Assembly (NCBI GenBank): GCA_029945855.1
Contig: JAQSDJ010000097.1
Coordinates: forward strand, 1-39,146
Direction of reading: 5' to 3'
DNA: 39,146 nt
Source: Lacunisphaera sp.
GTDB lineage: Bacteria; Verrucomicrobiota; Verrucomicrobiia; Opitutales; Opitutaceae
Below are positions 22,586 to 38,672 of the stretch, in pieces. Under the pieces are notes generated by a model. That model searched no databases. It saw only the letters and a list, made by a program, of their open reading frames with translations, and had not been told where the DNA came from. Each line of letters begins with the position of its first letter. Position 1 is the first letter of the stretch. The translations under genes and the position numbers were made by a program.

Positions 22586-22600
22586 TCGAGCACCCGCCTT

Positions 22601-22663
22601 CAGCAGATCCGCGGCAGCTGCTCGCCGCTGAGGCGGTCGACGATCCGCTCGGCGCCGATGATG
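22601..22663 (-). pseudogene. 63-bp duplicate of the hypE 3' end
   Basis: This segment matches 23368-23430, the last 20 codons and stop of hypE, with a single base difference, in the same orientation. Translated on the minus strand it gives [20 protein letters not shown]. The match ends abruptly on the hypE-proximal side. It is a fragment, not a gene. Confidence 0.9.
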
Positions 22664-22764
22664 CACGTGGCGAACATATCGACTTGCGTCAGTGCCGCGA
22701 TGGCGCGAAAGCTCGTCCCGGATGCAGAGTGAACTGGGCCAGCCACATTGCGCCAGGATCCTCC

Positions 22765-23366: not shown

Positions 23367-24434
23367 TCAGCAGATCCGCGGCAGCTGCTCGCCGCTGAGG
23401 CGGTCGACGATGCGCTCGGCGCCGATGATGCTGCGCTGCGTCACCTGGCCGGCCGGGCCGGCCTTCACCCCGCCGATGATCACCGCCGGGCCGCCCGGAC
23501 CGGCCTCGCTGATGATCTTCACCGCCTGCTCCGCCTGCGCTTCGGGCAAAATGCAGACAAAACGGCCCTCGTTGGCCACGTAGAAGGGATCGAGTCCGAG
23601 GATCTCGCAGGCCCCGCCGACCAGCTCTGACACGGGCACCTTCGCCGCGTCGATCGCGATGGCGAGCTTCGCCGACTCCGCCAGTTCGACCAGCGAGGTC
23701 GCCAGCCCGCCGCGGGTCAGGTCGCGCAGACAATGGATCTCCAGGCCGGCCGCGAGCAGGGCTTTCACCGGCGCCACCAGCGGCGCGCAGTCGCTCTCGA
23801 TCGCGCTCTCAAATTCCAGTCCCGCCCGCGTGGCCATGATCGCCATGCCGTGCCGGCCCACGTCGCCGCTCAACACGATGGCGTCGCCCGGACGGATGCT
23901 CGACGGTGCGACCGTGAGCGCCGTCTCGATCACGCCGACGCCCGAGGTCGTCACGTAAAGCCCGTCGCCCTTGCCGCGCTCGACGACCTTGGTGTCGCCG
24001 GTAACGATCGCCACGCCCGCCGCCGCCGCCGCCGCTTTCATCGAGTGGACGATCTTCTCCAAGGTGGCCATCGGGAAACCTTCCTCGAGGATGAAGCCCG
24101 CGCTGAGCCAGAGCGGCCGTGCCCCGCACATGCACAGGTCGTTGACGGTGCCGTTGACCGCGAGCTTGCCGATATCGCCACTGGGAAAGAACAGCGGGCT
24201 GACCACGTGCGAGTCCGTCGTGAAGGCCAGCCGGCCGCCGCCCGGGAAAGGGAGCATCGCCCCGTCGTGCTGCGCCTCGAGCCCGGGGTTGGCAAATGCC
24301 GGCCGGAACACGCGGTCGATCAGGTCCTGGGTCAGCCGCCCGCCGCCACCATGGCCGACGGTGATCTCCGTGCGGTGCGACAGCGGAACAGGGCAGGTGG
24401 TAAAACCGGAGGGCGTGGGACCGGTGTCTGACAT
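23367..24434 (-). CDS. hypE: Hydrogenase maturation protein HypE
   Basis: The 355-residue protein has PurM/AIR-synthase-like motifs: [44 protein letters not shown] and [14 protein letters not shown]. It ends in PRIC, whose last cysteine receives the carbamoyl group from HypF and is dehydrated to thiocyanate, the cyanide donor. ATG at 24434 gives a normal family length; an in-frame ATG at 24446 is an alternative. It faces hypABFCD tail to tail instead of ending that operon. Its last 63 bp are duplicated at 22601-22663. Confidence 0.95.
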
Positions 24435-24470
24435 GGCCGGTAGCATGGGACCGGCCGGCCGGAATCCCGA

Positions 24471-24516
24471 GACAAAAATGTGCGCAACCCCTGCCCGGCT
24501 TTGCGCATATCTTGTC
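24471..24516. promoter_or_regulatory. Imperfect inverted repeat upstream of hypE
   Basis: GACAAAAATGTGCGCAA and TTGCGCATATCTTGTC are near-complementary around a 13-base GC-rich centre, 37-82 bp before the hypE start. It could be an operator or a leader hairpin. It shares GATATGCG (minus strand 24504-24511) with two other promoter regions here. Confidence 0.4.
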
Positions 24517-24548
24517 GGGAACGCTGTCTTTGAAGGGGCGGCGCCCCG

Positions 24549-24576
24549 CGACAAGCTCGGGGCCGTGAGCCTGTCG
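24549..24576. repeat. CGACAAGCTC/GAGCCTGTCG palindrome
   Basis: A 10-bp inverted repeat with one mismatch and an 8-base loop in the gap between hypE and the aminotransferase gene. The type resembles common dispersed palindromes in GC-rich genomes. Confidence 0.5.
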
Positions 24577-24639
24577 AACCGGGAAGCCGGTGCCACATTG
24601 GGTGCGCAGCCACGATCCAGACTCAAGCCGCAGAAACTT

Positions 24640-24718
24640 TGGCCACAAAAGGCTCAAAAAGCACAAAAGGGGACGATAGCGAAGACTGCTTTTGCGACTT
24701 CTGTGCCTTTTGTGGCCA
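24640..24718. repeat. GGCCACAAAA-family inverted repeat without ORF (copy 1)
   Basis: The left arm starts TGGCCACAAAAGGCTCAAAA and the right arm ends TGTGCCTTTTGTGGCCA, separated by about 17 bp. The arms match the ends of the GxxExxY element at 31862-32312. It lies in the 388-bp gap 24435-24822, in which no gene is seen. Confidence 0.8.
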
Positions 24719-30900: not shown

Positions 30901-31848
<948 letters not shown>

Positions 31849-31861
31849 CTTTCAATCAATG

Positions 31862-32312
31862 GGCCACAAAATGCACAAAAAGCGCAAAACCCATGAACGA
31901 GCCTATCGCCCGGCAGCTTGCCGATACCATACGTCAGACGGCCTTCGAAGCCCACACCTTCCTCCGGCACGGACACAATGAGAAGGTTTACGAAAATTCC
32001 CTGCGCAACCGCCTGCGAAAGAAAGGCCTCACGGTCGATCAGCAGATGCCGATCGCGGGGCATGACGAAGACGGCAGCCCGCTGGGTGAGTTTCTGGCCG
32101 ACCTGGTCGTCAATCATGAGTTCATCATCGAGCTCAAGGCTGTCCGCGCCCTGGTGGATGAGCACACCGCCCAGGTTCTCGGCTACCTCCGCGCGTCGCG
32201 CTTGGAGCACGGGATGCTCATCAATTTCGGTTCTCCGCGAATTCAATTCCATAAATACATCTTCCGCCAAACCGACTGATCCTATTTTTGCGCCTTCTGT
32301 GCCTTTTGTGGC
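31862..32312. mobile_element. Inverted-repeat-bounded GxxExxY element inserted between pyrB and pyrC
   Basis: Left arm 31862-31889 (starts GGCCACAAAATGCACAAAAA) and right arm 32286-32312 (ends TGTGCCTTTTGTGGC) are inverted copies with about three mismatches in 27. The single gene inside begins 3 bases after the left arm and stops 6 bases before the right arm, so the ORF fills the element. Arms of the same family occur without a gene at 24640, 35655 (one degenerate arm) and 38595. This suggests a small mobile or formerly mobile unit. No target-site duplication was established. Confidence 0.65.
31893..32279 (+). CDS. GxxExxY protein (PD-(D/E)XK nuclease-like)
   Basis: The 128-residue protein carries the naming motif G27-H-N-E30-K-V-Y33. 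A PD-(D/E)XK-like core is visible as D70 (FLADLVVNHEFIIELKAV) and E80-L-K82, followed by HTAQVLGYLRAS. The family is widespread with no settled function; a nuclease role is inferred from the fold only. It interrupts the pyr operon in the same direction and is bracketed by inverted repeats, so it is likely cargo or a driver of that element, not a pyrimidine gene. Confidence 0.9.
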   Translation: MNEPIARQLADTIRQTAFEAHTFLRHGHNEKVYENSLRNRLRKKGLTVDQQMPIAGHDEDGSPLGEFLADLVVNHEFIIELKAVRALVDEHTAQVLGYLRASRLEHGMLINFGSPRIQFHKYIFRQTD

Positions 32313-32321
32313 AAATCCCTC

Positions 32322-33611
32322 ATGAGTTTCATCGTAATCAAAAACGGCCGCGTCATCGATCCCGCCTCGAAGCGGGACGCCCCGGGCGACGTCTTCATCG
32401 CCGACGGCAAGTTCGTCAAGTCGCTCACCCCCGCGCAGAAGAAATCCGCGCAGGTGGTCGACGCCCGCGGGCTCGTCGTCTGCCCCGGCTTCGTCGACAT
32501 CCACGTCCATTTCCGCGAGCCCGGCCAGACGCACAAGGAGACCATCCTCACCGGCTCGCAGGCCGCCGCCGCCGGCGGGTTCACCACCGTCGTCTGCATG
32601 CCCAACACCTCGCCCCCGGCCGACAATGCCGGCACGGTCGAGCTGATCAACGGCGCCGCGCGCCACGCCGCCGTCCACGTCTACCCCACCGGCTGCATCA
32701 CCGTCGGCCTGAAGGGCGCCCAGCTCGCCCCCTACGGCTCGCTCAAGAAGGCCGGTGTCGTCGCCATCACCGACGACGGTCTCTGTGTTTCCAGCAACGA
32801 GCTCATGCGCCGCGCCGTCGAATACGCCAAGATGTTCGACCTCCCCGTGCTCGACCATTGCCAGGACGACTCCCTGACCCAGAAGGCCGTGATGAACGAG
32901 GGCATCGTCTCGACCCGGCTCGGCCTGCAGGGCTGGCCGCACGCCGCCGAGGACATCATCGTCGCCCGCAACATCATCCTCTCCACCTACACCGGCGCGC
33001 ACATCCACATGCAGCACATCAGCTCGGCGCACTCCGTCGAGCTCATGCGCCGGGCGAAGAAGGACGGCATCAACGTCACCGCCGAGGCCACACCGCACCA
33101 TATCGCGCTGACCGAGGAATCGCTCACCACCTACGACACCAACTTCAAGATGAACCCGCCGCTCCGCACCGAGGCGGACCGCCAGGCCATCATCGCCGGC
33201 CTGCGCGACGGCACGCTCGACTGCATCGGCACCGACCACGCCCCGCACGCCCCCGAGGAGAAGGACAAGGAGTTCGACTACGCGCCCAACGGCATCATCG
33301 GCCTCGAGACCGCGCTGCCCGTGGTCCTCGACGTCCTTGTCCGCCAGAGCAAATTCAAGCTGCCGCACGTCATCGACCTCCTCACGCGCCGCGGCGCGGA
33401 GATCCTGAAGCTCCCCGCCGGCACGCTCGCCACCGGCGCGCCGGCCGATGTCTGCGTCTTCGACCCCGACGAGACCTGGCTCTACGACACCTACGGCGCC
33501 TTCAGCAAGTCGATCAACTCCCCCTGGAACAAACAAAAGCTCACCGGCCGGGTGAAGACCACGATCGTCTCCGGCAAGATCGTCTACCAAAATGGCAAGA
33601 TGGTGGCGTGA
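32322..33611 (+). CDS. pyrC: Dihydroorotase
   Basis: The 429-residue amidohydrolase has metal ligands H61 and H63 in GFVDIHVHFREPG, further histidines in LDHCQD and HMQHISSAHS, and the catalytic aspartate in GTDHAPHAPEE. It cyclises carbamoyl-aspartate to dihydroorotate. Length and motifs fit the class I (bacterial PyrC/PyrX type) enzymes found with pyrB. The ATG lies 9 bp past the right arm of the inserted element. Confidence 0.94.
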   Translation: MSFIVIKNGRVIDPASKRDAPGDVFIADGKFVKSLTPAQKKSAQVVDARGLVVCPGFVDIHVHFREPGQTHKETILTGSQAAAAGGFTTVVCMPNTSPPADNAGTVELINGAARHAAVHVYPTGCITVGLKGAQLAPYGSLKKAGVVAITDDGLCVSSNELMRRAVEYAKMFDLPVLDHCQDDSLTQKAVMNEGIVSTRLGLQGWPHAAEDIIVARNIILSTYTGAHIHMQHISSAHSVELMRRAKKDGINVTAEATPHHIALTEESLTTYDTNFKMNPPLRTEADRQAIIAGLRDGTLDCIGTDHAPHAPEEKDKEFDYAPNGIIGLETALPVVLDVLVRQSKFKLPHVIDLLTRRGAEILKLPAGTLATGAPADVCVFDPDETWLYDTYGAFSKSINSPWNKQKLTGRVKTTIVSGKIVYQNGKMVA

Positions 33612-38594: not shown

Positions 38595-38672
38595 TATGGC
38601 CACAAAAAGCACAGAAGGCGCAAAAATATCAGCTTGGCTCTTTTTTGAGCCTTTTGCGTCTTTTGTGGCCAA
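38595..38672. repeat. GGCCACAAAA-family inverted repeat without ORF (copy 3)
   Basis: The left arm starts ATGGCCACAAAAAGCACAGA and the right arm ends TGCGTCTTTTGTGGCCAA, around a centre of about 15 bp. It fills the thiL-tsaE gap; the tsaE start lies 20 bp further on. The same arms bound the GxxExxY element. Confidence 0.8.

Follow-up and report, generated by a model that had tools for sequence, protein, structure and literature searches.

On balance, the GxxExxY gene between pyrB and pyrC in the window, the 39,146-nucleotide stretch of Lacunisphaera sp. DNA analyzed here, probably belongs to a two-part system similar to REPIN-RAYT, composed of an arm-bounded PD-(D/E)XK nuclease gene and of gene-free inverted arm pairs located between genes. 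Genes of this family were associated with inverted arms of constant polarity, gene-free pairs of such arms occurred between genes, arm type matched gene type in some genomes, and pairs were present or absent at the same junctions depending on the species. These observations point to a hitherto undescribed family of DNA, mobile now or in the past, distributed across many bacterial groups, in which cutting and movement would be performed by the GxxExxY protein.

The pyrB-pyrC element and its protein

According to the earlier note, the open reading frame starts 3 bases past one arm and ends 6 bases short of the other at the pyrB-pyrC junction, and the coordinates re-derived here agree with it. 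The features of the window are the following.

30901..31848, + strand, pyrB (aspartate carbamoyltransferase), left neighbor
31863..31889, + strand, left arm (27 nt), three inward-reading 9-nt units, GCCACAAAA TGCACAAAA AGCGCAAAA
31893..32279, + strand, GxxExxY gene, 128 aa, with a modeled PD-(D/E)XK fold (profile matches, alignment, predicted structure)
32286..32312, - strand, right arm, inverted copy of the left arm (arm pattern scan)
32322..33611, + strand, pyrC (dihydroorotase), right neighbor
24642..24716, gene-free inverted pair with a 21-nt loop, arms 24642-24668 (+) and 24690-24716 (-)
38599..38669, gene-free inverted pair at the thiL/tsaE junction with a 17-nt loop, arms 38599-38625 (+) and 38643-38669 (-)

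The pair at 24642-24716 lies approximately 7.1 kb upstream of the GxxExxY gene and the pair at 38599-38669 approximately 6.3 kb downstream. Further gene-free arms had been recognized before and are present, but their number is four, arranged as two inverted pairs, and not three. The arm pattern matched six times in the window and had no match in 100 dinucleotide shuffles. For the junction at 24642, few close orthologs were obtained from the aminotransferase search.

The GxxExxY identity was confirmed by profiles TIGR04256 (108.2 bits; cut-off, 35) and PF13366 PDDEXK_3 (96.4 bits; cut-off, 22), and the eponymous motif of the window protein reads GHNEKVY. Residues E30, D70, E80, and K82 were invariant, and Q94 and Y98 at least 90% conserved, in an alignment of 66 sequences (the window protein plus 65 of 80 loci, after exclusion of 4 that contain stops and of 11 more); the conservation of G27, E30, Q94, and Y98 results partly from selection, because the scan itself drew on stretches that include these residues. 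The predicted structure (mean pLDDT, 92) was best matched by SSO0001, which we take to be a Cas4 protein (Z, 10.0; 102 residues; rmsd, 3.8 Å). Further matches, all with Z below 8, were Cas4, AdnAB, AddAB, Hjc, restriction enzymes, and other PD-(D/E)XK proteins, and may reflect a common arrangement only. The protein thus models as a PD-(D/E)XK fold with catalytic-type residues kept, and the nuclease-like fold claimed previously is supported by the structural matches of the model together with the invariant D70, E80, and K82. The order D...ExK...QxxxY is typical of RecB/Cas4-type nucleases. In its modeled fold, with SSO0001 as the best match, the protein resembles the RecB/Cas4/lambda-exonuclease and Hjc nucleases, and it differs from them in that a sequence search of the PDB gave no relative at E < 0.9. 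No known transposase domain was present among its profile matches (TIGR04256 and PF13366).

A defense or phage family was considered for GxxExxY and rejected, with only a weak match in PADLOC (E, 0.044) and no match in PHROG. Only five GxxExxY relatives were found in viral contigs, and the plasmid search gave seven records. Open-access literature searched by GxxExxY, PF13366, and arm-unit strings contained no description of the element, though other literature may differ; one arm-unit string occurs in an eDNA paper.

Arms around GxxExxY genes in other genomes

Eight GxxExxY genes were found in the window's genome by protein search, and a motif-blind search showed all of them to be enclosed by inverted repeats, which scored at least 14 and differed in sequence. 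In the genus/order set, which consists of the window's genome plus 13 relatives, a score of at least 13 was reached by 66 of the 69 fully flanked loci; this threshold was picked, like the CRCnRA unit, once arms and controls had been seen. This set was derived from 80 matches, reduced to 75 by removal of four fragments or contig-edge pieces and merging of two pieces that belong to one gene, and six of these lacked full flanks. Across phyla, 56 of 70 fully flanked loci reached the same score, a count that also takes in inverted repeats without clear units; the 80 loci of this set ranked highest among the 563 stretches confirmed in a species-genome scan. The earlier note had made its proposal dependent on arms accompanying GxxExxY genes elsewhere, and the association proved strong in both sets.

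Random window places, used as a control, passed in 4 of 150 cases, and flanks taken 1.3 to 1.7 kb further out in the cross-phyla set passed in 2 of 56. With swapped flanks, 31 of 300 combinations passed in the cross-phyla set and 29 of 300 in the genus/order set, in which some flanks share arm types or come from near-duplicate loci. Under a stricter test, in which both sides had to have at least two correctly oriented units, the numbers of passing loci were 53 of 69 and 48 of 70, compared to 5 and 8 with incorrect orientation. Most, not all, of the loci below the threshold (3 of 69 and 14 of 70) had arm units on at least one side. Both archaeal loci were metagenome-assembled; L301 passed and L276 failed.

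In the fetched loci, GxxExxY was enclosed, by a motif test, in 51 of 58 arm pairs with at least 180 nt inside, a count that is biased because most loci were fetched on account of their GxxExxY gene. The remaining seven, inspected by eye, consisted of four intact or broken GxxExxY copies, one other open reading frame with an ExK-like motif, and two pairs without an open reading frame. At L258 (686-1217), an arm pair of the 9-nt type surrounds a non-GxxExxY open reading frame with a VEAK motif and adjoins a GxxExxY gene.

A typical arm consists of three inward-reading units of about 9 nt (CRCnRAn), and its sequence varies from gene to gene. Of 125 elements, 116 had CRCnRA cores directed from the outside to the inside and 3 had them reversed, with 6 ties; chains of at least two units were present in both arms of 93 of the 125 versus 1 of 124 control pieces. 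Three was the most frequent number of cores (147 of 244 arms from the 122 non-reversed elements), and their spacing was 8, 9, and 10 nt in 84, 163, and 101 cases, respectively (15 others). The positions that vary with type are the base following the second C and the spacer. In the Geobacteraceae genome G036, 78 arms of the CCACAGAG type were counted, the majority in inverted pairs; two betaproteobacterial genomes had 85 and 75 of them. The read-backwards control for this type was not clean because the unit nearly repeats when reversed. This type was matched in 13 of 20 genomes, and some of the seven without a match have another arm at their gene.

In the same genomes, TIGR02436 four-helix-bundle genes, presumably relatives of 23S rRNA intervening-sequence proteins, also had inverted arms at 23 of 30 loci tested (63 matches; L128-L157). 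They resemble the GxxExxY elements in being small genes between inverted periodic arms, but the proteins are unrelated and their arms repeat with a strict period of 7 nt (shift 7 identity, 0.68; shift 14 identity, 0.70), compared to a peak at 9 for GxxExxY; the period and kind of arm therefore follow the gene family. A 23S rRNA insertion was rejected for the window copy, which is located between pyrB and pyrC, and no rRNA match was found in the window or in six related loci.

Gene-free pairs, arm types, and junction occupancy

In the 5.0-Mb genome of the window (G000), the arm pattern with up to 3 mismatches had 53 matches and the reversed pattern had 2. Pairs were defined as a + arm followed by a - arm within 600 nt, and no - then + neighbors within 600 nt occurred in the arm list. 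Forty-four of the 53 arms formed 22 inverted pairs with GCCAC at the outer end and units directed inward, and 9 arms were unpaired at this number of mismatches. A GxxExxY gene was the cargo of one pair, that of the window, and the arms of the other 21 were separated by 5 to 247 nt. By a rough codon-composition test, 20 of the 22 pairs had no coding-like frame running through; of the two exceptions, C15:1859 could be intragenic and the other was open solely on the strand opposite its flanks. By the same rough test, 13 of 21 classifiable elements were between co-directional, 5 between divergent, and 3 between convergent frames. In one region (G000:C147 15500-24188, L069), a pair occupied each of three successive junctions of a co-directional gene run, with a fourth pair beyond. 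Two same-type pairs were present within about 7 kb of the window gene and five within 12 kb of the gene in G036 (L395), and the latter suggests local clustering of same-type pairs around the Geobacteraceae GxxExxY element.

The earlier idea that each gene type is tied to its own repeats was supported by arm-protein similarity together with genome-wide arm counts. In 67 elements, arm similarity correlated with protein identity (Spearman, 0.25; 0 of 2,000 permutations as high), increasing from 0.27 at 25 to 35% identity to 0.88 at 85% or more, a correlation that shared descent alone could produce. More telling are the genome-wide counts, which include the two arms of the resident gene itself. 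In the cross-genome count, window-type arms numbered 50 in G000 and 12 in G011, where the window-type gene is resident, and 1 in G009, which has a related gene with another arm; arms of the G009 type numbered 41 in G009, 3 in G000, and 0 in G011. Matching is clean in these three genomes and less clean elsewhere. Window-type arms numbered 16 in G003 (single contig) and 19 in G006, where the GxxExxY genes found bear other arms; both arm types were present in G002, G008, and G012, and nearly identical arms at two GxxExxY genes of G005 are an exception to one gene per arm type.

Occupancy of the same junctions differed among related species, in keeping with the earlier proposal. At the pyrB-pyrC junction, inspected by eye in 13 genus genomes, a gene-bearing element was present in G000, G011, G002, G008, and G009, no element in G006 and G001, and gene-free inverted repeats of other kinds in six genomes. 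The five GxxExxY genes at this junction belong to two clades, which requires two changes on the tree (0 of 200 bootstrap trees with one), and repeated insertion there or replacement of a resident copy therefore follows from a tree of 74 of the 75 proteins with few columns and some long branches. A gene-free pair was present at all three junctions of the rhaA-lutA-lutB-lutC run in G000, in which LutB exceeds the profile cut-off and lutA and lutC are presumptive names based on position. The same junctions in G011 are 6 nt long or overlapping and have no pairs, and two lut junctions of G001 have none. By eye, different inverted-repeat elements were present in individual genus members, and none in others, at both pyrB-pyrC and thiL-tsaE (L170-L186, L189-L208), and these junctions look like hot spots.

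Alternatives to a self-moving element have to be weighed against these data. It is unlikely, but deserves consideration, that GxxExxY is a domesticated DNA-binding or repair protein and its dispersed arms are sites serving the host in chromosome structure or regulation, with mobility being past or rare. Such a role would suit the kept catalytic residues, the predominance of one gene per arm type, arms that stay recognizable while loops are unrelated, and the persistence of arms in genomes in which no cognate gene was found. It is at odds with the arm-bearing junctions of G000 that are empty in G011, with occupants of junctions that vary among species, and with a distribution across many phyla in which the arm sequence changes, a pattern that looks selfish.

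We consider it improbable that GxxExxY is a passenger of arms mobilized by a different enzyme (RAYT or insertion sequence transposase). Y1_Tnp genes are available in 9 of 11 genus genomes searched, yet no Y1_Tnp match was obtained in the drafts G002 and G006, which have 17 and 19 arms, in a transposase search that covered Y1_Tnp. Furthermore, among 30 Y1_Tnp loci a three-unit chain was present at 5 and arms bracketing the gene at 0, and the kind of arm goes with the gene family, as the other period of the four-helix-bundle arms indicates. RAYT was rejected as the partner on the basis of the Y1_Tnp results.

The interior of the gene-free copies did not bear out their earlier description as MITE-like derivatives, since in the window's genome the arms are common to them and the internal sequence is not; the mean local score between loops was 10.24 versus 9.75 when shuffled (19 of 21 loops, the 5-nt and 247-nt loops being left out). 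Left and right arms of hand-picked pairs agreed less within elements than under random pairing in G000 (22.09 versus 22.80 of 27; 22 pairs; P = 0.0008), G036 (20.72 versus 21.16 of 24; 36 pairs; P = 0.0010), and G012 (19.08 versus 19.69 of 23; 12 pairs; P = 0.02); the values for G009 did not differ clearly (10 pairs; P = 0.38). Perfect hairpins are thus avoided, if anything, and one possible reason is that hosts avoid long perfect palindromes. As loops are unrelated and own arms tend to differ, the gene-free pairs are neither simple MITEs nor functional hairpins.

An action at the RNA level, with the arms forming an mRNA hairpin between operon genes as a processing site, terminator, or IVS-like excision, is very improbable. 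The 13 of 21 elements between co-directional frames would agree with it, but 5 are between divergent frames, and in three of four genomes the two arms of one element resemble each other less than arms taken from different elements do, the fourth genome giving no clear result. On the gene strand, 80 mismatches were wobble-compatible versus 110 non-pairing transitions, so that no G-U preference was observed there, and the slight lean was to pairing on the strand opposite the gene (110 versus 80; P = 0.035), which is a point in favor of a hairpin. The disagreement of arms together with the lack of a wobble excess on the gene strand speaks against a selected RNA or DNA hairpin, and Rfam had no match around the six related loci.

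Of the 125 gene-bearing elements, 82 could be anchored, and a scan of these at offsets 0 to 13 and lengths 2 to 10, in a comparison containing no same-species empty sites, revealed no target-site duplication. The sole strong signal was a 2-nt identity beside the arms (15 versus 2.1 expected), and because all 15 dinucleotides are self-complementary (GC, 12; TA, 2; AT, 1), it represents the inverted repeat running on and no duplication. A classical autonomous transposon with internal-deletion MITEs, as inverted ends, a single gene, and many gene-free copies might suggest, is scarcely credible given the unrelated interiors in G000 (slight likeness only in the Geobacteraceae genome), the lack of a target-site duplication in the anchored elements, and a protein without a known transposase domain.

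Relation to known systems and proposed mechanism

In REPIN-RAYT (TnpA-REP) systems, as presented in a published description (PMC3116915), the enzyme gene is beside its cognate repeats, inverted doublets are dispersed between genes, and a genome can have several type-specific sets, all of which resembles the arrangement found here. Dispersed inverted intergenic doublets are present in the window's genome, too. The REPIN-RAYT enzyme is a Y1/HUH tyrosine transposase, whereas here a PD-(D/E)XK nuclease of family TIGR04256 is beside the repeats and the Y1_Tnp loci are unbracketed. Furthermore, the arms are three direct units of about 9 nt that closely bracket the gene, and loops are not conserved, so that the whole doublet is not kept as a unit (10.24 versus 9.75 shuffled). 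Because of the enzyme type and the missing conserved unit, the element was not classed as a member of REPIN-RAYT. With the MITEs of DDE transposons it shares short gene-free inverted-repeat copies between genes, but the interior is not common, no target duplication was found, and the gene-bearing copy has no DDE transposase.

In the favored two-part system, a nuclease gene, usually one per arm type, would be located between two inward arms of three units of about 9 nt. The GxxExxY protein would bind the repeated units, bring two arms together in a synapsis, and nick or cut at the outer edge of the element, and arm-bounded segments would then be inserted or rewritten at gene junctions, both in cis and in trans. 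Operation would be similar to REPIN-RAYT, with another enzyme and another repeat. A broader reading is tentative and in our view possible rather than probable, namely, that this is an ancient and new class of selfish or domesticated DNA in bacteria and perhaps archaea, in which a RecB/Cas4-like nuclease reads arms of three 9-nt units with lineage-specific sequences and gains or rewrites pairs at junctions, in parallel with a four-helix-bundle class with 7-nt arms.

GxxExxY is a named family without a function in many phyla, and should the arms prove to be its substrate, a short DNA and one small protein would suffice to test its role directly. The proposed system, if true, would account for a class of short intergenic repeats of environmental bacteria and would extend REPIN-RAYT-like systems by a second enzyme type. 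The lineage-specific arm sequences offer a natural series for protein-DNA recognition.

Other repeats were observed in the window and at the junctions compared. A 65-nt direct repeat (98% identical; 22600-22664 and 23367-23431 of the window, 767 bases apart) surrounds a 213-aa open reading frame, and its second copy belongs to the end of open reading frame 23367-24626, which we take to be hypE-like; this looks like an insertion having duplicated a gene end. At thiL-tsaE of G026 (L195, L209), the last 28 codons of thiL are duplicated downstream of an inverted-repeat element, which looks as though the element had carried flanking DNA in along with it. Another palindromic repeat, GTAGGTCGGGCTTTACGCCCGAC..., is common to the lutA-lutB junction of G000 (L372) and the thiL-tsaE junction of G007 (L197).
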